From Occultella gossypii (GTDB lineage Bacteria > Actinomycetota > Actinomycetes > Actinomycetales > Beutenbergiaceae), in the NCBI RefSeq assembly GCF_019947135.1, contig NZ_JAGSHT010000010.1:372001-436000 (forward strand): a DNA stretch of 64,000 bases. The letters are read 5' to 3'. The translations under genes and the position numbers were made by a program. Position 1 is the stretch's first letter. Every line of letters starts with the position of its first letter. Positions 4,337 to 22,467 of this stretch are shown piece after piece. The notes under the pieces are model-generated. The model ran no database searches, was not told the origin of the DNA, and worked only from the letters and a program-made list of their open reading frames with translations.

Positions 4337-5557
4337 TCAGACCAGCATGCTCACCGGCTCCTCGACGACCCGGGTGAATGCCTCCAGCCAGCGCGCCGCC
4401 AGGGTGCCGTCTGCGACCCGGTGGTCCACGGACAGCGTGCAGGTCATCACGGTGGCCACGCCCAGGGCACCGTCGGTGACGACCGGCCGCTGCTCGGCCA
4501 CGCCGACGGCGAGGATCCCCGCGTGCGGCGGGTTGATGATCGCCGCGAACTCCCGCACACCGTAGCTGCCGAGGTTGGAGACGGTGAACGAGCCGCCCTC
4601 GAGCTCGTCCTGGCGCAGCCGCCGCTCGCGCGCCCGGGTAGCCAGGTCGGCGATCGCGGTGCTGAGCTCGCGCAGACGCATCCGTTCCACGCCCCGGACC
4701 ACCGGCGTGTACAGCCCGTGGTCGGTGGACACGGCCACGGCGATGTCCACCCCGGCGAAGGTGCGCACCGCGTCGTCGGTCCAGATGGCGTTCAGGTCCG
4801 GCACCCGTTCGTGCGCGGCGGCGACTGCTCGGACCACGAGGTCGTTCACGGACACGCGGTGACCACCGTCGGCGTTGATCCGACGGCGCAGGTCCAGCAG
4901 CGCATCGACGCGGACCTCCGCGGTCAGGTAGTAGTGCGGCACGGTGGCCTTGGACTCCGCGAGGCGTCGCGCGACGGCACGCCGCATCCGGGTGTGCGGG
5001 ACGTCGGTGAAGGCAGCGGCTGGTGTTCCGGTCCGGTCAGGCCCGACGGCGGTCGCCCGCTCGTCCCGGACGGCGTCCGTGGTCGCTGCGGTGCTCGCGG
5101 CACTCGCCGCACTCGCGGCGGCCTCGACGTCCCGGCGCACGATGCGCCCGCGCGGCCCGGAGCCGCGCAGTACGGCGAGGTCGAGGCCCTGGTCGCGGGC
5201 CAGCTTGCGGGCGAGGGGGCTGGCGAAGACCCGACCACCCGGGCCCACTCCGCCGTCGGGCGTTGCGTCCCCCTGCCCCACCTGCGCGAGGAACGCCGCC
5301 AGCACGGCGTCGTCCTCACCGGGGGCGAGCAGCACCGCGATGGGTGCGCCGACGTCGACCGTCGCTCCCGCGGCCACGAGCCGGCGTCCGAGCACGCCGT
5401 CGGACTCGGCCTGGTACTCCACCACCGCCTTCTCGGTCTCGATCTCGGCGAGCGGCTGGCCGACGCTCACGCCCGTGCCCTCCGCGACGAGCCAGGTTGC
5501 CAGCACCCCCTCGGTGGTGTTCGCGAGGACCTCCGGCATCCGCACGAGGGTGGGCAT
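4337..5557 (-). CDS. 2-oxo acid dehydrogenase E2 (dihydrolipoamide acyltransferase)
   Basis: Transfers the acyl group from E1 through a swinging lipoyl arm to CoA. Domain order is classical: lipoyl domain, residues 1-76, with the lipoyl lysine at 43 in ETEKAVVEY; peripheral subunit-binding domain, about 110-146 (ASPLARKLARDQGLDL then GSGPRGRIVRRDV); and catalytic domain from about 185, with the active histidine at 379 in DHRVADG. Only one lipoyl domain is present. The ATG at 5557 lies 3 nt after the E1 stop, so the two genes are co-transcribed. No E3 (dihydrolipoamide dehydrogenase) gene is in the window, so E3 must be shared. The substrate could be pyruvate, acetoin or a branched-chain keto acid. 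Confidence 0.92.
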   Translation of the reverse strand: MPTLVRMPEVLANTTEGVLATWLVAEGTGVSVGQPLAEIETEKAVVEYQAESDGVLGRRLVAAGATVDVGAPIAVLLAPGEDDAVLAAFLAQVGQGDATPDGGVGPGGRVFASPLARKLARDQGLDLAVLRGSGPRGRIVRRDVEAAASAASAASTAATTDAVRDERATAVGPDRTGTPAAAFTDVPHTRMRRAVARRLAESKATVPHYYLTAEVRVDALLDLRRRINADGGHRVSVNDLVVRAVAAAHERVPDLNAIWTDDAVRTFAGVDIAVAVSTDHGLYTPVVRGVERMRLRELSTAIADLATRARERRLRQDELEGGSFTVSNLGSYGVREFAAIINPPHAGILAVGVAEQRPVVTDGALGVATVMTCTLSVDHRVADGTLAARWLEAFTRVVEEPVSMLV

Positions 5558-7735: not shown

Positions 7736-7793
7736 CGCAGTTCTCCTTCGACGGCGGCGTGGAACGGGAGGGCCGCCCTCAGGATACGACTCG

Positions 7794-7916: not shown

Positions 7917-8444
7917 ATGGCATTGCCCGGACTCGTCGGCACCGAGCACATCGGCTTCACCGTCCCGGATCTGGAGGAGGCCACCCGGTTCTTCGTGGAT
8001 GTGATCGGCTGCGAGTGGCTGTACTCGCTCGGCCCGTTCGCCGACCCACACGGCGACTGGATGGCCGAGCACCTGAACGTGGAGCCCCGCACCGTGATGC
8101 GCGAGAACCGGTTCTTCCGGTGCCGCACCGGACCGAACTTCGAGGTCTTCGCCTACGACCCGCCCACCCCGGCTGCCCCGCAACCTCGCAACAGCGACAT
8201 CGGCGGGCACCACCTCGCGTTCTACGTGCAGGACCTGGACGCCGCGGTCGCCTACCTGCGTGAGCAGGGCATCCGGGTACTCGGGGAGCCGACCGCGAGC
8301 TCCCGGCACAACACCGGGCAGCGCTGGGTCTACTTCCTCGCGCCCTGGGGCATGCAGTTCGAACTCGTCAGCTACCCCGGCGGCAAGGAGTACGAGAAGT
8401 CCGCGACGACGCTACTTTGGCACCCGGCACATCCGAACGACTGA
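7917..8444 (+). CDS. VOC (glyoxalase/dioxygenase-fold) protein
   Basis: 175 residues with two beta-alpha-beta-beta-beta modules of the vicinal oxygen chelate superfamily: EHIGFTVPDLEEATRFF at the start and HHLAFYVQDLDAAVAYLREQG in the second half, ending with WGMQFELVSYP. The two module-leading histidines and the late glutamate are the usual metal ligands. ATG at 7917 has AGGAGG 6 nt upstream; a longer open frame from 7206 is antisense to the E1 gene. It heads a plus-strand operon with the GntR regulator. The reaction (lyase, epimerase or dioxygenase) cannot be read from sequence; control together with E1/E2 suggests a step in the same catabolic route. Confidence 0.83.
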   Translation: MALPGLVGTEHIGFTVPDLEEATRFFVDVIGCEWLYSLGPFADPHGDWMAEHLNVEPRTVMRENRFFRCRTGPNFEVFAYDPPTPAAPQPRNSDIGGHHLAFYVQDLDAAVAYLREQGIRVLGEPTASSRHNTGQRWVYFLAPWGMQFELVSYPGGKEYEKSATTLLWHPAHPND

Positions 8445-8458
8445 CCGAAGGGAGCGGC

Positions 8459-9121
8459 GTGGCGAGCACCCCACGGGCGGACGCCCTCGCGTCCCAGCGC
8501 ATCGTCGCGGGCCTGCGCGCGCAGATCCTGGCCGGCGACCTCGAACCGGGCGCACGGATCCGCCAGGAGGACCTCGCCGAACGGTTCGGGGCGAGCCGGC
8601 TCCCGGTCCGCGAGGCCCTGCGACTGCTCGAGGCCGAGGGCCTGGTTCGCCTGGTCGCGAACACCGGTGCGTGGGTCGCCAGGCTGAGCCTGACCGAGTG
8701 CACCGAGGCCTACCTGATCCGCGAACGCCTGGAGCCGCTGCTGCTGGCGGAGTCCATCCCGTCGCTGAGCGAGCCGGCCGTGTCCGAGCTGGACCGCCTC
8801 GCCGACGCCATGGAGTTCGCGGACCTGGAGACGTTCCTGGTCCTGGACCGGCAGTTCCACATGCTGTCCTTCAGCGGCGCGGCGTCGGAGTCGCTCGCCG
8901 CCCAGGTCCGCCGGCTCTGGAACACCACCCAGCACTACCGGCGGGCGTTCGCGATCCTCGTGGACATCCAGCACAGCCACCTCACCCATCATGAGCACCA
9001 CCTGATGGTCGACGCGATCAGCCGCCGCGACCCCCAGGACGCCGAGGCGCTGCAGGCCCTGCACATCCGCCGGACCCGCAAGGCGCTGGTCGAGCACCCG
9101 GAACTGTTCGACGTAGCATGA
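8459..9121 (+). CDS. GntR-family transcriptional regulator, FCD (FadR-like) subfamily
   Basis: 220 residues. The N-terminal winged helix carries the GntR signature ARIRQEDLAERFGASRLPVREAL; the C-terminal all-helical FCD domain contains ..LDRQFHMLSF.. and a late HEHHLMVDAI stretch with metal- or ligand-binding histidines. GTG at 8459 is chosen (GAAGGGAG just upstream), 14 nt after the VOC stop; the frame also opens at 8417 inside the VOC gene. FCD regulators usually bind small organic acids and release DNA on binding. The paired palindromic sites at 7794 and 7857 are the likely targets, giving control of both E1/E2 and its own operon. Confidence 0.87.
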   Translation: MASTPRADALASQRIVAGLRAQILAGDLEPGARIRQEDLAERFGASRLPVREALRLLEAEGLVRLVANTGAWVARLSLTECTEAYLIRERLEPLLLAESIPSLSEPAVSELDRLADAMEFADLETFLVLDRQFHMLSFSGAASESLAAQVRRLWNTTQHYRRAFAILVDIQHSHLTHHEHHLMVDAISRRDPQDAEALQALHIRRTRKALVEHPELFDVA

Positions 9122-9740: not shown

Positions 9741-10541
9741 CTACGTCCGCTCGTGCGGGCGCCCGCCCAGATACAAGGCGGACAGCTCCGGGTCCGCGAG
9801 CAGGTCCGCGGCCGGGCCGGTGATGTGCAACCGGCCGAGGTCGAGGACGCAGCCGATGTCTGCCGTCTCCAGGGCCCGGCGGGCGTTCTGCTCGACCAGG
9901 AGCACGGCCGTGCCGGCGTCGCGCATCGTGACGATCTGCTCGAACACGGCCGCGGTGGTCTTCGGATCCAGGCCCATCGACGGTTCGTCCAGCAGCACCA
10001 CCTTCGGGTCGACCATCAGCGAGCGGGCGAACTCCACCTGCTTCTGCTGGCCGCCGGAGAGCAGGCCCGCGAGCGAGGTCCACCGCTCCCCCACCACGGG
10101 GAACAGGTCCTTCACGAACGCGGTCCGCTCGGCGACCAGAGCCCGGTCCTTGACCGAGTAGGCGCCGAGGCGGATGTTCTCCTCGACCGTCATCTCGGGG
10201 AACACGCTGTGCCCCTGGAGCACATGGGCCAGGCCGCTGGCGAGCCGCTCCTGGGGCCCCTGCCGGGTGACGTCGACGCCGTCGACCAGGACCTCCCCGG
10301 CGCGCGGGGTGAGCATGCCGCTCGCCACCCGCAGCACGGTTGACTTGCCGGCGCCGTTCGGTCCGACGAGGCACACGATCGTACGCGGCGGGACCTTCAC
10401 GGTCAGCCCGCGCAGCACCAGGGCGGCCCGGCCGTACCCGGCCTCGATCCCGTTCAGCTCGAGCAGGTTCGCGGCCCCGGTCCGAGGCGCGGTCTCGGAC
10501 CCAGGCTCGGGCGCGGGCGACGTGGGCTGTTCAGACGCCAA
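9741..10541 (-). CDS. livF: Branched-chain amino acid-type ABC importer ATPase 2 (LivF-like)
   Basis: 266-residue nucleotide-binding protein: Walker A GPNGAGKS, signature LSGGQQKQ, Walker B VVLLDEPSMGLDP and the switch histidine region replaced by the LivF-type ..VLLVEQNARRAL. LivF normally pairs with LivG to drive the two membrane subunits. The TTG start at 10541 is supported by GGAGG 7 nt upstream and overlaps the LivG gene by 11 nt. It is the last gene of a five-gene minus-strand operon. The cargo is not necessarily leucine, because this family also carries amides, urea and aromatic acids. Confidence 0.93.
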   Translation of the reverse strand: MASEQPTSPAPEPGSETAPRTGAANLLELNGIEAGYGRAALVLRGLTVKVPPRTIVCLVGPNGAGKSTVLRVASGMLTPRAGEVLVDGVDVTRQGPQERLASGLAHVLQGHSVFPEMTVEENIRLGAYSVKDRALVAERTAFVKDLFPVVGERWTSLAGLLSGGQQKQVEFARSLMVDPKVVLLDEPSMGLDPKTTAAVFEQIVTMRDAGTAVLLVEQNARRALETADIGCVLDLGRLHITGPAADLLADPELSALYLGGRPHERT

Positions 10542-11265
10542 GGTAGGCCTCCAGCACTCGCGGGTCGGCCTGCACGTGCGCCGGGTCGCCCTCGGCGATC
10601 GGTCGGCCCCGGTCGAAGACCACCACGTGATCGGACAGGCTCATCACCAGCTCCATGTTGTGTTCGACGACCACGAACGTGCGCCCCTCGGCGTTCAGCT
10701 CCCGGATCAAAGCGGAGATCCGCCCGATCAGGGCGGGGTTCACGCCGCCGGCGGGCTCGTCCAGCATGATGATCTCGGGATCGCCCATCAGGACGCCTGC
10801 GAGCTCCAGGAGCTTCTGTTGCCCGTAGGAGAGGTTGCGCGCCTCGGCGTGCTCGAGGTGGTCGATGCCGACCCGCCGCAGCCACACCCGGGCCGCCGCG
10901 ATCGCCGTCGGGTTCTTCGCGGAGCCCAGGGCACCGGTCAGGGACGGGTTCTTGACCGCGACGAGCAGGTTCTCCAGCACCGTCATCCGCGGGAAGATCC
11001 GGCACACCTGGAAGCTGCGGCCGAGTCCGAGCCGGGCGATCCGGTCCGGGGAAGCCCTGGTGACGTCGTGGCCCGCGAGCGTCACTGTGCCGGCATCGGC
11101 GCGGATCATCCCGGTCACGCAGTTGAAGAACGTGGTCTTGCCGGAGCCGTTCGGCCCGATGATGGCGTTCACCTTGCCGGGCTGGAAGGACACGCTCGCG
11201 TCGACCACGGCGTGCACGCCACCGAAGGACTTGCTCAGGTTCGCGACCTCGAGGGTGACGGTCAT
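10531..11265 (-). CDS. livG: Branched-chain amino acid-type ABC importer ATPase 1 (LivG-like)
   Basis: 244 residues: Walker A GPNGSGKT, LivG-type insert GRSFQVCRIFPRMTVLENLL, signature LSYGQQKLLELA and Walker B IIMLDEPAGGVNP. The LivG form of the signature, SYGQQ, separates it from the LivF neighbour. It overlaps the upstream permease by the ATGA of 11262-11265 and the downstream ATPase by 11 nt, showing tight co-translation. Confidence 0.94.
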   Translation of the reverse strand: MTVTLEVANLSKSFGGVHAVVDASVSFQPGKVNAIIGPNGSGKTTFFNCVTGMIRADAGTVTLAGHDVTRASPDRIARLGLGRSFQVCRIFPRMTVLENLLVAVKNPSLTGALGSAKNPTAIAAARVWLRRVGIDHLEHAEARNLSYGQQKLLELAGVLMGDPEIIMLDEPAGGVNPALIGRISALIRELNAEGRTFVVVEHNMELVMSLSDHVVVFDRGRPIAEGDPAHVQADPRVLEAYLGV

Positions 11266-12341
11266 GGCTTGCTCGCCTCCTCGGCGTCCCGCTCGGCAGC
11301 AAGGTCCGCCGCGCTGATCTCCCGGATCGAGGATGCCTGCGGCCCGAACCGGGCGAACAGGCCCTTCACGGCCGGGATCACGCCCTCCGGCATGAACAGC
11401 ACCACCACGGCGAGCAGCAGTCCGGTCGCGACCAGGTGGAACTGGGTGTCCCCGTACTGGGCCTTGAAGAACTCGATCGCCATGCCAACCACGAGGGCGC
11501 CGAGCAGCGGGCCGAACAGGGACCGGACGCCCCCGAGGAGGGCCATCAGTACCATGTACGCGCCCATCATGATCGAGAACTGGAACACCGGGTCCAGGTC
11601 ACCGAACCAGAGCGCGTAGAGCCCGCCGCCGAGGCCGGTGAAGAACGCGGACAGGATGAACGCGACCAGTTTGGCGCCGGTCGTCGGCACCCCGAGGGAG
11701 CGCGCCTTGTCCTCGTCCTCGCGGACCGCCTTCAGGCCCATCCCGAACCGGGACCGGTCGATGGCCCACCAGGCCAGGAGCATCACGGCGAGCAGGCCGA
11801 GGTAGATGTAGTAGAAGGTCCGGTGGTGGTCGGTGCGGATCAGGTCCGGGAACGGCCGTGGCAGCGAGAGCCCACCGGAGCCACCCGTGATCGACCCCAT
11901 CGACTGGAACATCAGCAGCAGGATGAGCACGAACGCGATCGTCACGATCACGAACGAGGCGCCCCGCACCCGCAGGGCCGCGATCCCGATGGGCACCGCG
12001 ATCACCGCCACGATCAGCGCCGCCAGGGCGAGCGCGAGGAACGGCGAGATGCCGGCCTTCACCACAAGGATCCCGGTGCCGTAGGCGCCGAGGCCGAAGT
12101 AGGCGGCGTGGCCGAGCGAGATGTACCCGGTGAAGCCGCCCATGAAGTTCCAGCCGGTCGCGGTCACCGCGTAGTTGAGAATGACCACGCCGGTGGAGAG
12201 CAGGTACCCGACCTTCGTGGTCTGCGGAAACACCACCAGCACCGCGGCGAGGGCCAGGAGGGCGATCACCCTCGCCGCGGTCAGCCAGCGGGCACCCGTC
12301 AGGGCGCGCTCAAGCTCCAGCGTCTCAGAAGCGTTGCGCAA
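11262..12341 (-). CDS. livM: Branched-chain amino acid-type ABC importer permease (LivM-like)
   Basis: 359-residue membrane subunit with about ten hydrophobic segments. The LivM motifs are visible: GWNFMGGFTGYISLGHAAYFGLGAY in the first third (cited as positions about 66-90) and the cytoplasmic coupling loop VREDEDKARSLGVPT. TTG at 12341 has GGAGGTCGCC directly upstream and overlaps the LivH gene by 17 nt. The C-terminal 25 residues after FGPQASS are charged and probably cytoplasmic. Confidence 0.93.
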   Translation of the reverse strand: MRNASETLELERALTGARWLTAARVIALLALAAVLVVFPQTTKVGYLLSTGVVILNYAVTATGWNFMGGFTGYISLGHAAYFGLGAYGTGILVVKAGISPFLALALAALIVAVIAVPIGIAALRVRGASFVIVTIAFVLILLLMFQSMGSITGGSGGLSLPRPFPDLIRTDHHRTFYYIYLGLLAVMLLAWWAIDRSRFGMGLKAVREDEDKARSLGVPTTGAKLVAFILSAFFTGLGGGLYALWFGDLDPVFQFSIMMGAYMVLMALLGGVRSLFGPLLGALVVGMAIEFFKAQYGDTQFHLVATGLLLAVVVLFMPEGVIPAVKGLFARFGPQASSIREISAADLAAERDAEEASKP

Positions 12342-13203
12342 GGCGACCTCCGAAGAATCCCTGCGGACGCACCATCAGCGTCACGAACAGCGCCACGTAG
12401 AACACGGTCTGCGCCCAGGTGGTCCCGAGCGGGATCTGCAGCAGGGACTGCGAGATCCCGAGGACCATCGCCGCGATCGCAGCCCCCGGCACCGACCCGA
12501 GCCCGCCGACCACGATGATCGCCATCAGCGGCCCGATCCAGTGCCAGTGCAGGGACGGGTAGATCGTCGCGTCCATCGCCAGCGCGGTCCCCCCGACGGC
12601 GGCGGTCGCCAGTCCGAGCCCGAAGCCGTAGCTGGCGACCCGGTCGGTGTTGATCCCGACCAGCTGCGCCGCCTCCTTGTTCTGGATCGTGGCCCGCAGC
12701 GCCTGACCGAACCCGGTCTTCTTCAGGATCAGCCACAGCGCACCCAGCGCGAGCACGGCCAGCGCGAACGCGACGAGCTTGACCACCGGCACCTCGGCCC
12801 CGAACAGGGGCACGCTCGCCGAGCCGTAGCTGAAGTGGATCCGGCGCTGGACGCCCGTGAACACGAACCCGAGCATGCCCTCGATGATCAGCGCGATCGC
12901 GAACGTGAGCAGCACCGACATCATCGTGAGCGTGGCCGGCTTCAGCCTGGTGATCAGCAGGCGCTGCAGGCCGACCCCGACGACGAAGAACAGCGGCACG
13001 GTGATCACGAGTGAGAGGAGCGCGTCCAACCCGGTCCTGGTCGCGAAGAACCAGGCCAGGTAGGCCGCGAGGATCAGGAATGCGGAGTGGGCGATCTGCA
13101 CCACCCGCATCACCCCGAAGTACAGCGTCAGTCCCGAGGCCAGCAGGGCGTACAGCCCACCCAGCAGGATCCCGAGGATGAGGCTCTGGACGAAGAGCGA
13201 CAT
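12325..13203 (-). CDS. livH: Branched-chain amino acid-type ABC importer permease (LivH-like)
   Basis: 292-residue membrane subunit, the usual LivH length, starting MSLFVQSLILGILLGGLYAL. It has a LivH-type coupling region (TGFGQALRATIQNKEAAQLVGIN) and the late GGLGSVPGAAIAAMVLG motif. The ATG at 13203 is 11 nt after the binding-protein stop. With LivM it forms the channel of the importer. Confidence 0.94.
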   Translation of the reverse strand: MSLFVQSLILGILLGGLYALLASGLTLYFGVMRVVQIAHSAFLILAAYLAWFFATRTGLDALLSLVITVPLFFVVGVGLQRLLITRLKPATLTMMSVLLTFAIALIIEGMLGFVFTGVQRRIHFSYGSASVPLFGAEVPVVKLVAFALAVLALGALWLILKKTGFGQALRATIQNKEAAQLVGINTDRVASYGFGLGLATAAVGGTALAMDATIYPSLHWHWIGPLMAIIVVGGLGSVPGAAIAAMVLGISQSLLQIPLGTTWAQTVFYVALFVTLMVRPQGFFGGRLAQRF

Positions 13204-13214
13204 GAGGCCTCAGG

Positions 13215-14462
13215 TCACCATTCCGGCTTGACGTTGATGAACTCCGCCGTGGCCTGGTCGGCCGGCAGCACGATCTCCGGCTGGCCGGCCACGTACTGCT
13301 GGATGAAGTGGGCCCCGTTCGGGCGGCCGGCCTCGTCCCAGGCGAGGTCACCGACCACGGTCGGCACCGTGTTGGAGTGCAGCCAGTCGATCAGTTCCTG
13401 CTGGCACTCTCCCTGTTCGGCGCACCCGACCGCCTCGACCGCCGCCTGGACCACCTGCCCGGCGGTGTAGGCGTTCGCCTCGTCCTCGCTGGGCTCGCGG
13501 TCGTACAGCTCCGCGATCGCCTCGACGAACTCGGCGTTGCCCTCATAGTCCGCGGTCGGCGAGTACCCGGTGGGGGCGAGCACACCCTCGACGCCGTCAC
13601 CGAGGGCGTCCACGAACTCCGGCAGCGTCGGTGCCGTGGTGAACGCAGCCATCCGCGGCTGGTAGTTCAGCTGCTGCACCGCGACGATCATGTTCACGCC
13701 GTCCTGGTACTGCGTGCCGCCGACCAACAGGTCCGCATCCGCCTCGGCCAGCGCCGCGGCGATCCCGGAGAAGTCGGTGGTGTTCGGTGGGTACACCTCG
13801 TCGACGAGCGTGGTGATGCCGGCCTCCTCGAGCTTGTCCTTGAGTCCGTAGGCGGCGCCCTGAGCGAGCGGGTCGTCCATCGTGGCGTAGGAGGCGGTCT
13901 GCGGACGCTCCTCCTCGGGCATCTCCATGATGTAGTCGTAGAGGTAGTTGTAGTGGTCGTCGGCGATCGCCGGCGCCGCGTAGAAGAGGTTGCCGTAGCC
14001 CGCCTCGAAGATGTTCGCGGCCGCACCGGCGGGCTCCACGAAGAGCATCCCGTACTCGTCGACCACGCGGGCCGAGGCGAGCACCAGCCGGCTCGAGAAC
14101 GGGCCGATCACGAGATCGACCTCGTCCTGGGTGATCAACGCCTCGTAGTCGGCCACGACCCGGTCCGCGTTGGACTGGTCGTCCACGATCTTCAGCTCGA
14201 TCTCGCGGCCGAGCAGCCCGCCGTTCGCGTTGACCGTCTCCGCCCAGAGCTCGTAGCCGCGCTGCACGCCCTGGCCCGGTTCGGCGAAGTCGCCGGTGAG
14301 CGGAAGCGAGATCCCGATCAAGATGGGTTCGTCGCCACCCTCCGCGACATCGTCGCCGCCCTCGTCGCCACCGCCGCTGCACGCGCTCAGGATCAGTGCC
14401 GTGGCACCGATCCCGGCGATCAACGCCGAGGTCCGGCGCCGTCGTGAGGTCCACCTGCTCAT
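13215..14462 (-). CDS. Amino acid/amide ABC importer substrate-binding lipoprotein (LivJ type)
   Basis: 415 residues. A signal peptide with arginine-rich start ends in the lipobox LSAC, placing the lipid-attached cysteine at residue 28. The mature part is a type I periplasmic-binding fold (ISLPLTGDFAEPGQGVQRGYELWAE and ..GLLGREIELKIVDDQ). ATG at 14462 is preferred because AGGAGGAACTG precedes it; the longer frame from 14609 covers the promoter. It is the first gene of the importer operon. The LacI-type site at 14527-14540, 65 nt upstream, ties the importer to the LacI regulator at 17498, which suggests the cargo is the compound degraded by the neighbouring enzymes. Confidence 0.92.
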   Translation of the reverse strand: MSRWTSRRRRTSALIAGIGATALILSACSGGGDEGGDDVAEGGDEPILIGISLPLTGDFAEPGQGVQRGYELWAETVNANGGLLGREIELKIVDDQSNADRVVADYEALITQDEVDLVIGPFSSRLVLASARVVDEYGMLFVEPAGAAANIFEAGYGNLFYAAPAIADDHYNYLYDYIMEMPEEERPQTASYATMDDPLAQGAAYGLKDKLEEAGITTLVDEVYPPNTTDFSGIAAALAEADADLLVGGTQYQDGVNMIVAVQQLNYQPRMAAFTTAPTLPEFVDALGDGVEGVLAPTGYSPTADYEGNAEFVEAIAELYDREPSEDEANAYTAGQVVQAAVEAVGCAEQGECQQELIDWLHSNTVPTVVGDLAWDEAGRPNGAHFIQQYVAGQPEIVLPADQATAEFINVKPEW

Positions 14463-14526: not shown

Positions 14527-14540
14527 TGCAATCGTTTGCC
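14527..14540. promoter_or_regulatory. LacI-type operator upstream of the importer operon
   Basis: TGCAATCGTTTGCC, with symmetric half-sites GCAA and TTGC around a CG centre, the usual pattern of LacI-family operators. It shares GCAAYCGTTTG with the sites at 14775 and 22290. Confidence 0.65.
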
Positions 14541-14774: not shown

Positions 14775-14788
14775 AGCAACCGTTTGCA
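14775..14788. promoter_or_regulatory. LacI-type operator upstream of the MFS gene
   Basis: AGCAACCGTTTGCA, GCAA and TTGC half-sites around CG. It lies about 20-120 nt before the possible MFS start codons, suitable for repression. Confidence 0.62.
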
Positions 14789-14805: not shown

Positions 14806-16006
14806 ATGACCCGGAAACGAGGCCGCCATCTCCGCACCGGGGCGCTCCCTGCGCCTGCTCCTGGCGGCCGCATTCCTGAGTTCCGTCGACCGGATGCTGA
14901 TCGCGCCACTGCTGCTGCCGATCGCCGATGACCTGGACACGACGGTCGCCGCGGTCGCGACCACGGCGACCGTCTACTTCATCGGCTACGGCTGCACGCA
15001 GGTGCTGTGGGCGTTCGTCGCGGACCGGATCGGCCGCGTGAACGCGCTCCGGTTGGCGCTGGCGTTGGGCGGCCTGGCCACGCTCGCCTCCGCGGCGGCG
15101 CCCACCATCGAGATCCTCATGGTGTTGCGCGCGCTGGCCGGAGCCTCGTTCTCGGCGGCGGTGCCGACGGCGCTGACCTACGTCGGGGACTCCGTCGAGT
15201 CGCGGGACCGGCACGGGCCGTTGGCGGACATCATGACGGCCACGGCCCTCGGCATGGCCGCCGCGACGCTCGGGGCGGCCGCACTCGCCGACCTGATGAA
15301 CTGGCGGCTCCCGTTCGCCGTCGGGGGTGTGCTCGTCCTGGGCCTGGTCATGGCCCTGCGGCGACTACCCGAACCGGAGCGGACCGGCCCGCGACTGCCG
15401 ATCGGCGCCTCGGTGCGGCGCGTGGTCACGAACCGCTGGGCCGTGACGGTGATCGTTCTGGTGGCCATCGAGGGAGCCCTGTTCCTCGGCGCGCTGCCGT
15501 TCCTGCCGACGCTGCTGCAGGCCGGCGGGATGAGCACCGCGCTGTCCGGGGTCGTGACGGCCGCGTACGGGGCGTTCATCGTCGTCTTCGCGGTGGTCGT
15601 GAAACGCCAGGCCCGACGGCGCAGCCCGGCCTTCCTGATCGGCGTGGGTGCGGCATCGGCCACGGCGGCGTTCGCCGCGCTCGTCGTCGATCAGGGCGCC
15701 GCGGGCGTGTTCACGGCATGCGCACTGCTCGCAGCGGCCTGGGCGTTCGCGCACTCCACCATGCAGAAGTGGATCACCGAGGTGGTCCCGGCGGCGCGGG
15801 CCGTCGCGGTGAGCCTGTTCGCGTCCGGGCTGTTCCTGGGCAGCGCACTCGGGACCGCCCTCGGTTCGGGCGCGGTGGCCGAGGGCCACTACCAGGCGTT
15901 CGCGTGGGGGTTCGCCCTGGCGTCGGCACCGTTCGCGGTGGCCGTCACGGCCGCCCGGCGAGCGTACCCCGGCGACGGCCTCACGCCCCCGAAGCAGCCT
16001 CGATGA
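14806..16006 (+). CDS. MFS transporter (start uncertain; possible frameshift near the 5' end)
   Basis: Major facilitator of about 390-400 residues with twelve hydrophobic segments. It has the MFS loop 2-3 motif FVADRIGRVNALRLA. The first in-frame ATG, at 14894, begins inside the first membrane helix and would leave the protein short. Codons upstream of it encode a convincing helix start (SLRLLLAAAFLSSVDRM), but the frame contains no ATG, GTG or TTG back to a TGA at 14807. An ATG at 14806 in another frame could supply the N-terminus if one base were shifted between 14806 and 14830. I give the span from that ATG; the certain part is 14894-16006. The substrate is unknown; the operator at 14775 links it to the LacI regulon. 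Confidence 0.72.
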
Positions 16007-16340
16007 CCTCGTCGAGAACCTCGCGGGACGAGGCGAGTTGCGCGATCCTGGCGTCGATCCGGGCCCGCTCGCCGAGCAGCGTCTCCACCAAGGACGGCGT
16101 GGCCACTGCCGCGGGACCACCGTCGCAGTCCCGCATGCAGGGCAGCACGTCCGCGATCGTCCGGCTGGACAGCCCGGCCGCGAACAGCTCCTGGATGTGG
16201 ATCACCCGATCGACGGCGGACTCGGTGAACTCCCGATGCCCACCCCCGGTGCGCCGGGCGGCGAGCAGTCCCTGCTCCTCGTAGTACCGCAGCGACCGCT
16301 CACTGACCGCGGTCCGCCGCGCCAACTCCCCGATCCGCAT
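15981..16340 (-). CDS. MerR-family transcriptional regulator
   Basis: 119 residues: a winged helix RIGELARRTAVSERSLRYYEEQGLL at the N-terminus, then the dimerising coiled coil. Two cysteines in the LPCMRDCDGG segment, near residue 83, could sense thiols, metals or electrophiles. ATG at 16340 has AGGAGG 4 nt before it; the longer frame from 16385 would cover the promoter. The 3' end overlaps that of the MFS gene by 26 nt (convergent). It is divergent from the old yellow enzyme gene, its probable target, with a palindrome between them. Confidence 0.87.
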   Translation of the reverse strand: MRIGELARRTAVSERSLRYYEEQGLLAARRTGGGHREFTESAVDRVIHIQELFAAGLSSRTIADVLPCMRDCDGGPAAVATPSLVETLLGERARIDARIAQLASSREVLDEVIEAASGA

Positions 16341-16381
16341 CGCGCCTCCTGTCGCCATCGGCCGACTCGCACTCGAATCTG

Positions 16382-16391
16382 ACACCGGTGT
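16382..16391. promoter_or_regulatory. Palindrome in the MerR/old-yellow-enzyme promoter
   Basis: ACACCGGTGT is a perfect 10-bp palindrome in the 70-bp gap between the divergent genes. MerR regulators bind a palindrome between the -35 and -10 boxes, so this is the natural operator candidate. Confidence 0.5.
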
Positions 16392-16410
16392 GAGGTCCTA
16401 CCGTTCCGAC

Positions 16411-17550
16411 ATGTCGAACGACCTGCTCCTGCGCCCCTATTCCCGCGACCGCCTGAAGCTGCCGAACCGGCTCGTCATGGCGCCGATGACCCGCTACCGC
16501 GCGGCCGAGGACGGCACCCCGCTGCCGATCGTCGCCGAGCACTACGCCCAGCGCGCCTCGGCCGGGCTCATCATCAGCGAGGGCATCTACCCCGACCGTC
16601 GCGGCCAGAGCGGGTGGCGGCTGCCGGGGCTGACCGACGCCGCGCACGTGGCGGGGTGGCGGCAGGTCACCGACGCGGTGCACGCCCGAGGCGGCCGGAT
16701 CTGGGCCCAGCTCATGCACGGTGGTCGCAACGGACACCCGCTGGCCGGGCTGGACGGAGCGGCGCCGATCGCGCCCAGCGCGGTGCCCGCGGCCGCCTCG
16801 GTGCACCTGCCGGACGGCACCAAGACGGCGCCGGTGCTCCCCCAGGTCATGTCCGAGCGGGACATCGCGGACACCGTCGCCGCCTACGCAGCCTCGGCCC
16901 GGCTCGCGATCGACGCGGGCTTCGACGGCGTCGAGCTGCACGGGGCGAACAACTACCTGATCCACCAGTTCCTCGCCGACAACACGAATCTGCGCACCGA
17001 CGCCTACGGCGGCGGACCAGAAGGCCGGGCGCGGTTCCCGCTCGAGGTGACCGCCGCCGTCACCGGCGCGATCGGTGCGGACCGCACCGCGATCCGGCTC
17101 TCCCCCGGTAACCCGCAGTTCGGGATGGTCGAGGCCGACCCGGGGCCGGTCTACCGGCCGCTCGTGGACCGGCTGGACCGCCTCGGCCTGGCCTACCTGC
17201 ACCTCACCGACGGCGACGACTACCCGGCCCTGGCGGACCTGCGCCCGCGCTGGCACGGCACCCTGATCGCGAACGTCGGCGAGAACCGGGACCAGACCAC
17301 CCGCGACGCCGGCGAGGAGATCCTGCGGTCCGGGCTCGCGGACCTGGTCTCCTACGGCCGGGCGTTCCTGGCCAACCCGGACCTGCCGGCCCGGTTCGCG
17401 GTGCGGGCGCCGCTCAACCCGATCGACCACGCCCACCTGTACACGCCAGGTCCGCGCGGCTACCTGGACTACCCGGCGCTGGACCGCACCCAGCTGGTCA
17501 GCGCGGCGGCGCCGTCGAGCCCCGCACCACCAGCTCGACGGGCAGACTGA
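16411..17550 (+). CDS. Old yellow enzyme-family alkene reductase (NADH:flavin oxidoreductase)
   Basis: 379-residue FMN barrel that reduces activated C=C bonds using NAD(P)H. Family marks: LKLPNRLVMAPMTRYRA at the start, the catalytic pair in HGANNYLIHQF (His and Asn bind the substrate carbonyl), GGGPEGRARFPLEV, and late GLADLVSYGRAFLANPDLP for FMN phosphate. ATG at 16411 is the family-like start. The 3' end overlaps the convergent LacI gene by 53 nt, so the last 18 residues (proline/alanine-rich) are dictated partly by the opposite gene. Likely induced through MerR by electrophiles. Confidence 0.92.
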   Translation: MSNDLLLRPYSRDRLKLPNRLVMAPMTRYRAAEDGTPLPIVAEHYAQRASAGLIISEGIYPDRRGQSGWRLPGLTDAAHVAGWRQVTDAVHARGGRIWAQLMHGGRNGHPLAGLDGAAPIAPSAVPAAASVHLPDGTKTAPVLPQVMSERDIADTVAAYAASARLAIDAGFDGVELHGANNYLIHQFLADNTNLRTDAYGGGPEGRARFPLEVTAAVTGAIGADRTAIRLSPGNPQFGMVEADPGPVYRPLVDRLDRLGLAYLHLTDGDDYPALADLRPRWHGTLIANVGENRDQTTRDAGEEILRSGLADLVSYGRAFLANPDLPARFAVRAPLNPIDHAHLYTPGPRGYLDYPALDRTQLVSAAAPSSPAPPARRAD

Positions 17551-18538
17551 TCACGGACGTCGCGGTGTCCTCGCCGGTGAGCAGGCGCAGCATGATCCGC
17601 GCCGCCTCGGCGCCGAGCAGGGGGTGCGGCACCCGGATCGTCGTCAACGGCGGGGCCAGTTTGTCCACGTAGGGCATGTCGTTGTAGCCCACCACGCTCA
17701 CGTCCTCCGGGCAGCGCAGGCCCCGCTCGCGCATAACGTCGTAAGTCCCGATCGCGATCTGGTCGTTGCCGCAGGCGATCGCGGTCGGCGCGCTCGCGGC
17801 GTCCGTGGCCTCGAACAGCGCCGCGGCCGCGGCGGCGCCGGCCTCGACCGAGTAGGTCGCACACTCGAGGACGAGGCTGGGGTCCACGGTCAGCCCGAAC
17901 TCGTGCATGCTCTGCCGGAACGCCCGCGCGCGGGCTCGGCCGGTGGACAGGAACTGTGGGCCGGCCAGGTGCGCGATCCGGGTGTGCCCGAGCTCGGCGA
18001 GATGCCGCACGGCCATCTCCATGCCGCCGGCGTCGTCGCCGACCACGAGCGGGATCCGGGCACCCTCAACCCGCCGATTGACCAGTACGAGCGGGCGGTC
18101 CCCGTCTGCCGCGTGTCGGAGCACCTCGTCCTCGAGTTGTGCGCTGGCCACGATCAGCCCGTCCACCTGGCGGCCGATGAAGGCCTCCAGGACGTCCCGC
18201 TCCCGGTGGATATCGTTGTCGGTGTTGCCGATCAGGCAGGTGTACCCGGCCTCGGTGAGCACCGCCTCGGCGCCCTTGACGATGGGCGGGAACAGGGGGT
18301 TCGTGATGTCCGGCACGATGATGCCCACGGTCATGCTGCGTGAGGTCTTCAGGCCACGCGCCATCGGGTTCGGCCGGTAGGCCAGCTCCTTGGCGGCGCG
18401 CTGGACCTTGCGCACCGTGTCCGGGTTGACCATGCCCTGGGTGGCCGGGTTGAGGGCGCGCGAGACCGTGCCCGGATGCACACCGACCCGGTCCGCGACG
18501 TCCTTGAGGGTGGCTCCCCGCGCCCCCGGTGGCCTCAC
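17498..18538 (-). CDS. LacI-family repressor, probable regulator of the catabolic cluster
   Basis: 346 residues: LacI helix-turn-helix TLKDVADRVGVHPGTVSRAL with hinge helix YRPNPMARGLK, then a periplasmic-binding-fold effector domain (GIIVPDITNPLFPPIVKGAE ... CGNDQIAIGTYDVMRERG). GTG at 18538 overlaps the aldehyde dehydrogenase stop as GTGA, so the repressor is made as part of the operon it likely controls. Operators of GCAAYCGTTTG type lie upstream of that operon, of the importer and of the MFS gene. The effector should be the imported compound or an early product. Confidence 0.92.
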   Translation of the reverse strand: MRPPGARGATLKDVADRVGVHPGTVSRALNPATQGMVNPDTVRKVQRAAKELAYRPNPMARGLKTSRSMTVGIIVPDITNPLFPPIVKGAEAVLTEAGYTCLIGNTDNDIHRERDVLEAFIGRQVDGLIVASAQLEDEVLRHAADGDRPLVLVNRRVEGARIPLVVGDDAGGMEMAVRHLAELGHTRIAHLAGPQFLSTGRARARAFRQSMHEFGLTVDPSLVLECATYSVEAGAAAAAALFEATDAASAPTAIACGNDQIAIGTYDVMRERGLRCPEDVSVVGYNDMPYVDKLAPPLTTIRVPHPLLGAEAARIMLRLLTGEDTATSVISLPVELVVRGSTAPPR

Positions 18539-19992
18539 CAATCCACCGCGATGTACTTCGACTCGGTGTACTCGACCATGCCCTCGTGACCTCCCTCGCG
18601 CCCCAGACCGGACTGCTTCACCCCACCGAACGGGGCCGCCGGATCGGAGACGAGGCCTCGGTTCAGGCCAACCATGCCAGACTCCAGGGCCTCGCTGACC
18701 CGCAGCCCGCGGGCGAGGTCGCCGGTGTAGACGTAGGAGACGAGCCCGAACTCGGTGGCGTTCGCCAGGGCGATGGCCTCCGCCTCGGTCTCGAACGTCA
18801 TCACGGGTGCGACCGGTCCGAAGATCTCCTCGTCCAGGAGCTGCGATCCGGGCGTCACGCCGGCCAGCACGGTCGGCGCGTAGAAGTAGCCGTCGCCCTC
18901 GATCAGCCCACCGCCGGTGCTCACCGTGGCCCCGCGTGAGACGGCGTCCCCGACGAGTTCGCTCACCTTGTCCACGGCGGCCTGGTTGACCAAGGGCCCG
19001 ACGGCGTTGGCCCGGTCGATCCCGGGGCCCACCGTGAGCCCGGCCATCCGCTGGGCGAGGCGCGCGGTGAACTCCTCGGCGATGCCCGCCTGTGCGTAGA
19101 ACCGGTTGGCGGCGGTGCAGGCCTCGCCGCCGTTGCGCATCTTGGCCACCATGGCGCCGTCCAGCGCGGCGTCCAGGTCCGCGTCGTCGAACACCAGGAA
19201 CGGCGCGTTCCCGCCCAGCTCCATGGAACTGGAGATGACCTGGTCGGCGGCGACCCGGAGCAGGGACCGGCCGACCTCGGTGGAGCCGGTGAAGGAGAGC
19301 TTGCGCACCCGCGGGTCACCGAGGATGGCCTCCCCCACCGGCCCGGACCGCCGCGACGGCAACACGTTCACCACGCCGTCGGGCACTCCGGCCTGCGCCA
19401 GCAGGGCGCCAACGGCGAGCGCCGTGAGCGGGGTGTCCGAGGCGGGCTTGAGGATCACCGTGCACCCGGCCGCGAGCGCCGGGCCGATCTTGCGGGTGGC
19501 CATCGCCGCCGGGAAGTTCCACGGGGTGATCAGCAGCGCGATGCCGATCGGCTGGCGCACCACCATGATCCGGTTCGAGCCCGACGGCGCAGTCGTCAGC
19601 TCGCCGTGCAGGCGCACCGCCTCCTCGGCGTACCAGCGGAAGAACTCGGCCGCGTAGCGCACCTCGCCGAGGGCGTCGGCGAAGGCCTTGCCGTTCTCGC
19701 GCACGATCAGCTCGGCGAGCTGCTCCTCGCGCTCGGTCATCAGGTCGAACGCGCGGCGCAGGATGCTCGAGCGTTCCCGTGGGGCGGTCGCGGCCCAGCC
19801 GGCGGCCGCCGCCGCGGCCGCGTCCACGCACCGGCGGGCGTCCGCGACGGTGCCGTTGGCGACCGTCGCGATCACCCCGGCGGTGGCGGGGTCGATCACG
19901 TCGAACGTCGAGGCATCGTCGGCCGGACTCCACCTCCCGCCGATGAGGAGGTCGGTGGGTACCTCGAGTCCGGTCACCAGGTCGGTCAGCAT
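18535..19992 (-). CDS. NAD(P)-dependent (succinate/malonate) semialdehyde dehydrogenase family protein
   Basis: 485 residues, full length for the GabD-like aldehyde dehydrogenase family. Visible: LLITPWNFPAAMATRK for the cofactor cleft, ILKPASDTPLTA, FTGSTEVG, the general-base glutamate in MELGGNAPF and the catalytic cysteine in GEACTAANRF. ATG at 19992 has GGAGG 7 nt upstream. It oxidises an aldehyde acid to the acid with NAD or NADP. Placed after a beta-hydroxyacid dehydrogenase, a semialdehyde produced by that enzyme is the likely substrate, but succinate semialdehyde cannot be excluded. Confidence 0.92.
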   Translation of the reverse strand: MLTDLVTGLEVPTDLLIGGRWSPADDASTFDVIDPATAGVIATVANGTVADARRCVDAAAAAAAGWAATAPRERSSILRRAFDLMTEREEQLAELIVRENGKAFADALGEVRYAAEFFRWYAEEAVRLHGELTTAPSGSNRIMVVRQPIGIALLITPWNFPAAMATRKIGPALAAGCTVILKPASDTPLTALAVGALLAQAGVPDGVVNVLPSRRSGPVGEAILGDPRVRKLSFTGSTEVGRSLLRVAADQVISSSMELGGNAPFLVFDDADLDAALDGAMVAKMRNGGEACTAANRFYAQAGIAEEFTARLAQRMAGLTVGPGIDRANAVGPLVNQAAVDKVSELVGDAVSRGATVSTGGGLIEGDGYFYAPTVLAGVTPGSQLLDEEIFGPVAPVMTFETEAEAIALANATEFGLVSYVYTGDLARGLRVSEALESGMVGLNRGLVSDPAAPFGGVKQSGLGREGGHEGMVEYTESKYIAVDW

Positions 19993-20037: not shown

Positions 20038-21282
20038 TCAGTATGGGTTCGTCACGAACAGTTCGTCCGCTGGGAACAGGGTGATCACCTTCGGGCCGTC
20101 GGCGGTGACCACGATCTCCTCCTCGATCCGGGCGGCGGACACCCCGTCGGAGGCCGGGCAGTACGTCTCGAGGGCGAACACCATCCCCTCCTGGAGCTCC
20201 ATCGGGTGCTCCAGGGAGTTCAGCCGGGAGATGATCGGCCGCTCGTGCAGGGCCAGGCCGAGTCCGTGCCCGAACTGCAGCCCGAAGGCGGCCATCTCGG
20301 AGGCGAAGCCGAAGTCCTCCGCCTTCGGCCACACCCGGGCTATCTGGTCGGTGCTCACGCCGGGCCGGACCAGGTCGATCGCAGCGTCGATCCACTCCCG
20401 GCACTGGCTGTAGGCGTCCCGCTGGGGCGCGGTCGCGCGGCCGACCACGAACGTGCGGTAGTAACACGTCCGGTAGCCCATGTAGGACTGGATGATGTCG
20501 AAGAACGCCTGGTCCCCGGGCCGGATCAGCCGGTCGGAGAAGTTGTGCGGGTGCGGGTTGCACCGCTCCCCGGAGACGGCGTTGATCGCCTCCACGTCGT
20601 CGGAGCCCATGTCGTAGAGCTGCTTGTTCGCGATCGCGACGAGCTCGTTCTCCCGGATGCCGGGCTTGAGGGCCTCGGACAGCGTCTGGTAGACGCCGTC
20701 CACCATCGCTGCGGCGGTGCTGAGCAGGGCGATCTCGTCCGCGGACTTGATCTGCCGGGCGTCCAACATCACCTGCTGGCCGTCCCGGACGTCGAGCCCG
20801 ACGCGCTGCAGCTCCAGCACCATCGGCAGCTCGGCGATGTCCACCCCGATCGGCAGGTCCGCGACGCCGGCCGCGGAGAGCTCGCTGCGGATCTCGGCGA
20901 CCGCGCGCGCGATCAGGCCGGCGTCCGGAGCGACGGATCCGCGCAGGCCGAGCATGCCGGGCCGGGAGTTGCCCGGCTGCAGCCAGGGCGCATAGATCTC
21001 GTGGTGCAGCGCGGCCGAGCCGAAGTCCCAGACGATCGGCTCGCGGCCGCGCATCAGCAGCGCGTACCTGGCGACCTTGTCCCGGGCCCATTCGCCGATC
21101 ATGGTCGAGGTGAGGTAGCGGATGTTGTTGACGTCGAAGACGAGCAGGGCGCCCAGTTCCGAGGCGTCCAGTGCGGCGCGGGCCCGGGCCAGCCGGTACT
21201 CACGCAGCCGGTCGTAGTTGACCCGCTCCTCGAAGTCGACGGCCATCCGGCCGGGGGACGGGGTCAGGCTCATGGTCACCAT
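20038..21282 (-). CDS. M24-fold (creatinase/prolidase-like) hydrolase or lyase with a changed metal ligand
   Basis: 414 residues: N-terminal creatinase-like domain (LVFDVNNIRYLTST) and C-terminal pita-bread domain from about residue 170. Of the five metal ligands in aminopeptidase P and prolidase, four are seen: Asp in AFFDII, His in FGHGLGLALHE, Glu in FALETYCP and Glu in ARIEEEIVV. The second Asp (GYxxD in the family) is Cys here (GYRTC). It may therefore be metal-free like creatinase or bind metal differently. ATG at 21282 has GGAAGG 6 nt before it. It sits between the two dehydrogenases of a LacI-controlled operon, so it probably breaks the imported compound. It is not the DMSP lyase DddP, which keeps extra aspartates. 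Confidence 0.85.
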   Translation of the reverse strand: MVTMSLTPSPGRMAVDFEERVNYDRLREYRLARARAALDASELGALLVFDVNNIRYLTSTMIGEWARDKVARYALLMRGREPIVWDFGSAALHHEIYAPWLQPGNSRPGMLGLRGSVAPDAGLIARAVAEIRSELSAAGVADLPIGVDIAELPMVLELQRVGLDVRDGQQVMLDARQIKSADEIALLSTAAAMVDGVYQTLSEALKPGIRENELVAIANKQLYDMGSDDVEAINAVSGERCNPHPHNFSDRLIRPGDQAFFDIIQSYMGYRTCYYRTFVVGRATAPQRDAYSQCREWIDAAIDLVRPGVSTDQIARVWPKAEDFGFASEMAAFGLQFGHGLGLALHERPIISRLNSLEHPMELQEGMVFALETYCPASDGVSAARIEEEIVVTADGPKVITLFPADELFVTNPY

Positions 21283-21343: not shown

Positions 21344-22279
21344 TCAGGCTCGGCTGAGGCCGTCGGAGACGGCCGCGTCCTCGGACTCGAGCGTGAGGCC
21401 GGCGGCGCGGGCCTGGAGCTCGAGCAGCACCGCGAAGTCCTCGCTGACGTGCCCCTCCCCCACGGCGGCGGAGACGAGCTGGTGCACCAGGGCCGCCACC
21501 GGCATCGGCGCATCGAGGCGACGCCCCGCGGCCAGGCCGAGGTCGAAGTCCTTGCGCAGCAGCACCGGGGTGAACGTCGGCGTCAGATCGAGGTTCACGA
21601 ACGCCGGCGTCTTGTACTTCGTGAAGGTCGAGCCCATCACCGAGTCGTTCAGGAACGCCAGGAAGTCGGCCCGGCTGATCCCGCCCTTCTGGGCGAGTAC
21701 GGTGATCTCCGCCAGGGACTGGGTCACCACGCCGAGGAACAGGTTGTGGCAGATCTTGACCAGGCGGGCCCGCTCGCCCTCGCCCACATAGGTGACGGCG
21801 CGGCCGATCGCCTGCAGTTGGGCCTCGACCTCGTCGTGGACCTCCCGGGGGCCGGAGGTGACGATGGTGAGCCGGCCGGCATCGATGACCTTGGCGTTGC
21901 CGGACACCGGGGCGGCGAGCATCCGCGTGCCGCGCGCGGTTACCTCCGCCCGGATCGCCTCGCCCTCGTCCGGGTCCACGGTCGAGGAGTCGACGAGCAG
22001 GCGGGGGCCGGGCCCTGAAGCGAACAGGCCGCCCTCGCCGAAGAGCACCGCGTGCAGGTCCGCGCCGGTGGAGACCATCGTGTAGACGACCTCCCGGTCG
22101 GCCAGGTCCGCGGGGCGGTCGACGACGGAGGCGCCGTCCGCGATCAGCGCCTCGGCCTTGGTCCGGGTCCGGTTGTACACGGCCACGTCGTGCCCGGCGG
22201 CGAGCAGGCGCCTGGCCATGGCTGCGCCCATCCGCCCGGCCCCGATCCACCCGATCCGCGCTTGTGTCTCCTGGGACAT
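21344..22279 (-). CDS. Beta-hydroxyacid dehydrogenase (3-hydroxyisobutyrate dehydrogenase family)
   Basis: 311 residues. The N-terminal Rossmann motif GWIGAGRMGAAMA binds NAD(P); APVSGN follows near residue 120; and the catalytic lysine is in LVKICHNLF with the partner Asn three residues later. This family oxidises 3-hydroxy acids to semialdehydes or reduces glyoxylate/tartronate semialdehyde. ATG at 22279 follows CAGGAGACAACG. It is the first gene of the operon continuing with M24, aldehyde dehydrogenase and LacI, and lies directly below two operator-like sites. Oxidation to a semialdehyde used by the aldehyde dehydrogenase is the simplest scheme. Confidence 0.92.
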   Translation of the reverse strand: MSQETQARIGWIGAGRMGAAMARRLLAAGHDVAVYNRTRTKAEALIADGASVVDRPADLADREVVYTMVSTGADLHAVLFGEGGLFASGPGPRLLVDSSTVDPDEGEAIRAEVTARGTRMLAAPVSGNAKVIDAGRLTIVTSGPREVHDEVEAQLQAIGRAVTYVGEGERARLVKICHNLFLGVVTQSLAEITVLAQKGGISRADFLAFLNDSVMGSTFTKYKTPAFVNLDLTPTFTPVLLRKDFDLGLAAGRRLDAPMPVAALVHQLVSAAVGEGHVSEDFAVLLELQARAAGLTLESEDAAVSDGLSRA

Positions 22280-22289
22280 CGTTGTCTCC

Positions 22290-22303
22290 TGCAATCGTTT
22301 GTT
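22290..22303. promoter_or_regulatory. LacI-type operator at the dehydrogenase operon
   Basis: TGCAATCGTTTGTT, sharing 12 leading bases with the site before the importer operon. It is only 11 nt above the ATG of the first gene, so a bound repressor would block initiation or elongation. Confidence 0.65.
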
Positions 22304-22348
22304 GGCTTGCGTTGAAGGTACCAGAGTGGGTATCGAGATACTAGCGCC

Positions 22349-22360
22349 GCAATCCATTGC
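22349..22360. promoter_or_regulatory. Second palindromic site of the same promoter
   Basis: GCAATCCATTGC has perfect 5-bp arms (GCAAT, ATTGC) around CC. It lies 59 nt above the site at 22290, about six helical turns, and could allow looping. The centre differs from the CG of the other three sites. Confidence 0.5.
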
Positions 22361-22410
22361 AGTCGATGAGGGCGACTGTTCAGCTCGCCCTCCGCGCGCC
22401 CGCGCTCGGC

Positions 22411-22467
22411 TCCGCTGACGCGAAGCGCGGGTCGGCGCAGGCGCGACCCACATCTGGGGTCAGCGGA
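22411..22467. terminator. Nested hairpin downstream of the DMT transporter
   Basis: Outer arms TCCGCTGAC (22411-22419) and GTCAGCGGA (22459-22467) are perfect; inside lie GGGTCG (22429) and CGACCC (22444). It starts 16 nt after the stop codon of the minus-strand transporter gene. There is no U-run, as is common for actinobacterial terminators. Confidence 0.55.

Follow-up and report, generated by a model that had tools for sequence, protein, structure and literature searches.

The M24 fold serves peptidases, a lyase (DddP) and metal-free hydrolases, the last represented by the creatinase-like enzymes. In M24 peptidases and in DddP the aspartate of the GYxxD motif is a metal ligand. The metal residues of RdDddP are Asp295, Asp297, Asp307, His371, Glu406 and Glu421, and exchanging any one of its metal-binding residues for alanine is reported to abolish the activity of RnDddP (PMC4108388). 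The ligands of canonical M24 metallopeptidases read D, D, H, E, E, whereas in the protein analyzed here they read D, C, H, E, E. We place it somewhat on the probable side that this protein is a non-peptidase M24-fold metalloenzyme, belonging to a clade that arose once among DddP-related proteins through an Asp-to-Cys change at a metal ligand, and that it functions in carboxylate catabolism. Among the open-licence papers that our searches listed, no title or abstract opening describes a cysteine at the M24 metal site or the operon that encodes this protein.

Cys273 and the M24 metal site

The gene lies at 20038–21282 (−) of the window, by which we mean the whole 64,000-nucleotide stretch of DNA that was analyzed, from a genome of 5.84 Mb in 39 contigs. 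It starts with an ATG at 21282, within an open frame that extends to 21513, and encodes 414 aa. An initial annotation made from the sequence had assigned the product to the M24 fold, and this assignment holds. Pfam Peptidase_M24 (PF00557) scores 133.8 bits against a cut-off of 23, and M24-fold structures fill the listed fold matches, which places the protein in the M24 'pita-bread' superfamily. Creatinase_N falls just below its cut-off (20.4 versus 22 bits), and the best NCBIfam match is DddP (108 bits). The AlphaFold2 model, built with 40 sequences, has a mean pLDDT of 88.9 and a pTM of 0.88. Foldseek ranked DddP first against this model (6.1e-26), as did a second fold comparison (Z 36.6, with an rmsd of 2.6 across 394 residues at 22% identity), in which all entries less than 1 Z unit away, for example a Xanthomonas Xaa-Pro dipeptidase and DoeA (both Z 36.1), count as tied with DddP. 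The N-terminal domain had been likened to that of DddP, a resemblance that in fact runs the full length of the protein.

Five phmmer alignments (with PepE 4ege; RlDddP 4s01, 4s00 and 4rzy; and Deinococcus prolidase 5cdl) pair Cys273 (codon TGT, 20464–20466) with the second aspartate in the D...GYxxD motif. They also align Asp262 (20497–20499), His339 (20266–20268), Glu372 (20167–20169) and Glu387 (20122–20124), all likewise encoded on the (−) strand, with the four remaining M24 ligands. As the initial annotation had proposed, the cysteine falls on an aspartate of the metal site and not outside it, and the annotation's statement that the other four ligands are kept is borne out. Among the best matches of two homologue lists, Cys273, Asp262 and His339 are each present in 111 of 111 loci at identities of at least 56%; two of these loci (L004 and L006) are from the window's own genome, and four further loci of the set of 115, the other M24 genes of that genome, were set aside. 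The Occultella aeris homologue (L036) is 98% identical to the window protein. Cysteine is also present in distant relatives at 28–41% identity, including L122–L131 (34–41%) and L138 (29%), while L132–L137 have Asp at this position. Its presence in all 111 loci and in distant relatives rules out chance or sequencing error as the source of Cys273.

Our survey of ligand retention covered 250 M24 domains, comprising those of the homologue-list and plasmid loci, the five that the window's own genome carries, and 63 matches from seven further genomes; the homologue lists included the 30 best of one search, 80 of 251 in another, and the 30 best of a third. Position 273 was Cys in 148 domains (hereafter Cys-type), Asp in 82 (Asp-type), and another residue in 20, with site placement less sure in the most divergent rows. 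The other four ligands were intact in 147 of the 148 Cys-type domains, 81 of the 82 Asp-type domains, and none of the 20 others. Because the set holds near-copies, among them many Cys-type rows and the window gene counted three times, we also give clustered counts. After clustering at 90% identity the four ligands were intact in 82/83 Cys-type, 69/70 Asp-type and 0/19 other domains, and after clustering at 50% identity, which leaves five Cys-type clusters, in 4/5, 35/36 and 0/14, respectively. The sole Cys-type exception, L138 (G032:C55:1909-3105), is a natural ligand variant with Asn in place of Asp262, and it counts against the reading we prefer. Position 275 sorts the two types completely. 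Tyr275 (20458–20460, −), the invariant partner of the cysteine in a C-x-Y-R-[TC] signature, is found in 148/148 Cys-type and 0/82 Asp-type domains, which mostly carry Ser, Thr or Ala there.

The metal site is probably kept, with the thiolate as a ligand, since the other four ligands are intact in all but one Cys-type domain, a pattern that a sulfur-ligated site predicts. Had the cysteine taken the place of metal catalysis, the four ligands would be expected to drift, as they have in the 20 domains with another residue at 273. An analogous exchange, in an unrelated fold, occurs in the class B1 and B2 zinc metallo-beta-lactamases, in which a Cys ligand takes the place of the Asp found in glyoxalase II and other relatives. 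The survey also bears on a metal-free mechanism in which Cys273 would attack an amide or ester to give an acyl-enzyme, with His339 as base. Such a nucleophile is consistent with the cysteine at all 111 best-matching loci, and the invariant Tyr275 could assist it, but the mechanism has no need of the four metal ligands, which 147 of 148 Cys-type domains keep and which none of the 20 sampled M24 proteins with another change at this site keeps in full. We consider it distinctly unlikely.

Alternatively, one of the metal sites could have become vacant once its oxygen ligand was gone, leaving a single metal held by four ligands and freeing Cys273 to act as general acid/base, redox switch or substrate-binding residue. 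The replaced Asp is among the six residues around two metals in RdDddP (PMC4108388), and L138 shows that one Cys-type protein does without Asp262. Against a mononuclear site stands the strictness of the cysteine, which is not exchanged for Ser, Ala, Gly or Asn and would so point to a specific thiol role. This arrangement seems to us unlikely, and a thiolate-ligated metal site remains our preferred reading. In the predicted structure residues 270–280 form one strand. Positions 273 and 275 would therefore be expected to point the same way, and Cys273 and Tyr275 could form a redox-active or cross-linked pair.

Relation to described M24 families

The DMSP lyase DddP has in common with the M24 protein its full-length similarity, the N-terminal domain, four metal ligands and kinship in trees. 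It differs, at 22% identity, in Asp307, which is Cys here, and in its extra Asp297, for which the M24 protein has no counterpart acid, so the six-residue DddP site is incomplete. The score of 108 bits against the DddP equivalog NF043017, whose cut-off is 600, and the changes at the equivalents of Asp307 and Asp297 together rule out membership in DddP. The initial annotation had likewise set the protein apart both from DddP and from creatinase, and neither distinction needs revision. Creatinase (Z 33.4) and the ectoine hydrolase DoeA, both of which hydrolyze small zwitterions, have the same two-domain fold and, if our reading is right, would share a non-peptidase role with the M24 protein. However, creatinase-like enzymes lack the metal ligands, of which four are kept here and in nearly all Cys-type domains, and the protein scores 62.3 and 61.9 bits against the two NCBIfam models for DoeA/EutD, whose cut-offs are 575 and 613. 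The kept ligands and the DoeA scores rule out an enzyme of creatinase or DoeA type. As far as sequence comparison goes, the M24 protein may still work like DddP, DoeA or an M24 peptidase.

Some Cys-type genes have a creatinase-like M24 paralogue in their vicinity whose residues at the five ligand positions are E, Q, H, Q, G; examples are L055:4497-5699(−) and those in L058, L082, L093 and L141.

Phylogenies built with site 273 masked place the Cys-type proteins together. In a 94-row tree, a quick tree with long branches made from the 250 rows after leaving out near-copies and rows shorter than 180 residues, they form one side of a branch with an SH-aLRT of 83. A more careful 35-row tree, which takes in two haloarchaeal proteins, supports the Cys-type clade at 94/90, with a single Asp/Cys change in 92% of 200 bootstrap trees. 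Its neighbors in this tree are Asp-type proteins that carry a D-F-V-R motif, a placement of weak support (86/69); a DddP-like group comes next outward, the three together being supported at 97/94. Two DddP-like rows, L241 (820 bits) and L230 (635 bits), score above the DddP cut-off of 600 and serve as positive controls. The Cys-type clade, a large one, groups in these trees with DddP-related proteins rather than with the sampled prolidases, and it probably arose by a single Asp-to-Cys step among DddP-related enzymes.

Public records for plasmid-borne relatives carry the annotation 'Xaa-Pro peptidase family protein'. If the protein were a conventional Xaa-Pro peptidase that tolerates the changed ligand, this would agree with that label, with the Peptidase_M24 fold, and with dipeptidase structures that tie with DddP. 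Prolidase, aminopeptidase P and PepE do have the fold and four of the five metal ligands in common with the M24 protein, which differs from them in its Cys for the second Asp, its Tyr275 and its linked catabolic genes. Since the ligand is changed throughout a clade that groups with DddP-related proteins, and since the linked genes resemble carboxylate catabolism, we regard a conventional peptidase of this kind as very improbable. The public annotation is probably wrong for the Cys-type clade.

In the window's own phylum, 43 of 396 genomes have a match at E 1e-40 or better, some of these matches being Asp-type. In the phylum of genome G396, a match at E 1e-20 occurs in 22 of 249 genomes, but in only three of these, G396 itself among them, does it reach 65% identity. 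Homologues on haloarchaeal plasmids (L250 and L251, 34% identity) are Cys-type. The annotated neighbors in the two haloarchaeal regions L250:2896-11156 and L251:3722-10251 are of a different set: one has ABC importer, VOC and crotonase genes around the Cys-type M24 gene, and the other has EthD-domain, TPP-binding and NAD(P)-dependent oxidoreductase genes. One Rhodospirillales genome holds two Cys-type M24 genes close to each other (L111:8001-9221 and 13156-14427), which are 71% and 33–34% identical to the window protein.

Gene neighborhood

The M24 gene is the second gene of a four-gene operon on the (−) strand, in the order HIBADH-like, M24, SSADH-like and LacI. The first (21344–22279, start chosen by reading the sequence) encodes an NAD(P)-dependent dehydrogenase of the HIBADH family, with PF03446 and PF14833 detected on the longer open reading frame 21344–22453. 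The SSADH-like aldehyde dehydrogenase (18535–19992) matches PF00171 at 544 bits and the SSADH model at 568 bits, below the cut-off of 646, and the LacI-family regulator (17498–18541) carries PF13377 and PF00356. A five-gene Liv-type importer operon (9741–14462, −) comprises a substrate-binding protein (13215–14462, PF13458, start chosen by reading the sequence), two permeases (12325–13203 and 11262–12341, both PF02653) and two ATPases (10531–11265, PF00005 and PF12399; 9741–10541, PF00005). Genes for a fused 2-oxoacid-dehydrogenase-type E1 alpha/beta (5561–7738, −; PF00676, PF02779, PF02780) and an E2 acyltransferase with a lipoyl domain (4337–5557, −; PF00198, PF02817, PF00364) also lie in the window. 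Divergent from E1 is a gene for a VOC protein of the glyoxalase superfamily (7917–8444, +; PF13669, start chosen by reading), with a GntR/FCD regulator beside it (8417–9121, +; PF00392, PF07729). A further regulator and a distance of 12 kb separate E1 and E2 from the M24 gene, which weakens the link we propose between them.

An MFS gene and an oxidoreductase gene of the old-yellow-enzyme type (PF00724) occupy 14894–17550 (+), with the LacI gene on one side and the importer operon on the other. The MFS gene has an operator-like site in common with the importer operon.

LacI-operator-like sites, each given without strand, occur just upstream of the HIBADH-like gene (22291–22302, one mismatch to GCAANCGNTTGC), upstream of the importer operon (14528–14539, GCAATCGTTTGC), and between that operon and the divergent MFS gene (14776–14787, GCAACCGTTTGC). 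The window holds seven sites with at most one mismatch against 1.32 expected, the maximum in 100 shuffles being five. The presence of such sites ahead of both operons, that of the M24 gene and that of the importer, suggests that the substrate or a product acts as inducer. Taken alone, however, the sites count for little in favor of our reading, because the motif is a general one of the LacI family and the exact operator pattern occurs 15 times in the whole genome against nine for a reversed control.

Much of this gene set recurs in other phyla. Our context set was 80 of 251 matching places, and for 41 of the 80 the flanks of the M24 gene extend 4.5 kb or more in each direction. HIBADH-like genes were found in 29 of these 41 full-context loci, E1 in 28, LacI in 25 and SSADH-like genes in 20; two or more of the HIBADH-like, E1 and SSADH-like genes were present in 29, and none of them in three (L088, L101 and L111). 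An E1 gene lies within 600 nt of the M24 gene on the same strand in 49 of the 80 loci. For comparison with other M24 genes, we took those domains with at least 1 kb on each side, which were 113 of the 147 Cys-type and 49 of the 102 others. Within 1.5 kb, E1 was found at 68/113 Cys-type versus 0/49 other M24 genes, HIBADH-like at 40/113 versus 3/49, LacI at 21/113 versus 1/49 and SSADH-like at 13/113 versus 1/49. Neighborhood counts are not independent because several loci come from similar Chloroflexi MAGs, and the inconstancy of the set, seen for instance in the SSADH-like gene, tells against our reading.

The window E1 is 67% identical to that of a Streptomyces plasmid (L116), on which HIBADH-like, M24, SSADH-like, VOC, E1, E2 and ABC importer genes lie together. 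A Paenarthrobacter plasmid (L149) combines HIBADH-like, M24, VOC, E1 and E2 genes with a branched-chain-type ABC importer, and its cluster has no annotated aldehyde dehydrogenase. The window VOC protein is matched by the one next to E1 in L149 (57%) and by those of L116 and L119 (58%). Five marine plasmids (L117, L121, L142, L143 and L144) have E1, E2, SSADH and importer genes around M24, but an SDR gene rather than a HIBADH-like gene stands directly before it, a further point against the proposed scheme. In L117, L121 and L142 the opposite strand also encodes, at a distance of 8 to 9 kb, an oxidoreductase that matches a HIBADH-like query at 30–32%. Importers near Cys-type M24 genes vary among loci and include Liv-type, TRAP, MFS and ribose-type systems.

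Candidate pathway and substrates

The initial annotation had suggested creatine-, ectoine- or sulfonium-type compounds as candidate substrates. This neighborhood points to the catabolism of a carboxylate without naming the substrate. Our best reading of the M24 protein is a putative metallo-hydrolase or lyase in such a pathway, whose steps we deduce from enzyme classes. The importer would bring in a small carboxylate. Asp262, Cys273 as thiolate, His339, Glu372 and Glu387 would hold a center of one or two metals that activates water or a base, and a C–N or other C–heteroatom bond of the imported carboxylate would be broken. The HIBADH-like and SSADH-like dehydrogenases would then oxidize a hydroxy acid and the semialdehyde derived from it, with formation of an acyl-CoA left to the E1/E2 complex. 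A more far-reaching version, which we hold to be possible but doubtful, is that the clade, widespread and spanning bacteria and haloarchaea, has a thiolate-ligated and perhaps thiolate-bridged metal center with an invariant tyrosine on the same strand, and carries out a non-peptidase step in an undescribed carboxylate pathway.

One substrate compatible with our preferred reading is pantothenate, which the M24 protein would hydrolyze, leaving the neighboring enzymes to oxidize pantoate. The pantoate route runs through aldopantoate, dimethylmalate and ketoisovalerate to isobutyryl-CoA, and we considered it because the order of enzyme classes at the locus fits. The protein behind pantothenase activity (EC 3.5.1.22) is reported to be unidentified (PMC10393543). 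Contrary to expectation for this route, one E1 alpha of the family, from L064, scores higher with human pyruvate dehydrogenase (187 bits) than with human branched-chain E1 (122 bits) or a Thermus 2-oxo acid dehydrogenase (157 bits). Genes that the route would lead one to expect were also absent with the queries used, since neither the one LeuB-type enzyme of the window's own genome nor six of its seven class-III aminotransferases has a relative at E 1e-10 among the 80 loci or at E 1e-5 in the window, a search that is not a full negative because it used these seven queries on loci of which many lie on short contigs. We judge pantothenate hydrolysis extremely improbable.

The best solved relatives of the HIBADH-like protein are 3pef and 3pdu, which we take to be gamma-hydroxybutyrate-type enzymes. 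A gamma-hydroxybutyrate-type route considered on this basis was not singled out by the evidence. The same applies to an acyloin route, as a few E1 relatives are annotated as acetoin dehydrogenase and others as TPP-dependent or pyruvate dehydrogenase, and to a Rut-like scheme, of which LLM monooxygenase, flavin reductase and RidA genes occur in a few loci. No named pathway emerged from the E1 neighborhoods examined.

If our reading of the metal site is true, a clade with a fixed sulfur ligand represents a further way in which the M24 metal site can be retuned. A new catabolic pathway may be reached through the linked genes, and annotators can readily tell the clade apart by its C-x-Y-R-[TC] signature.

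Cys-type M24 genes also occur on two Paenarthrobacter plasmids (L149, NZ_CP101190.1, 22421–41386; L120, NZ_CP127116.1, 6244–16479), where they are grouped with RidA, crotonase, HIBADH-like, monooxygenase and flavin reductase genes. The monooxygenase and flavin reductase, which are presumably SadB-like, share 73% identity from one plasmid to the other. Similar neighbors are shown around the sad cluster of Microbacterium BR1 (PMC5693940), and sad genes may therefore have joined an older M24-linked cluster.
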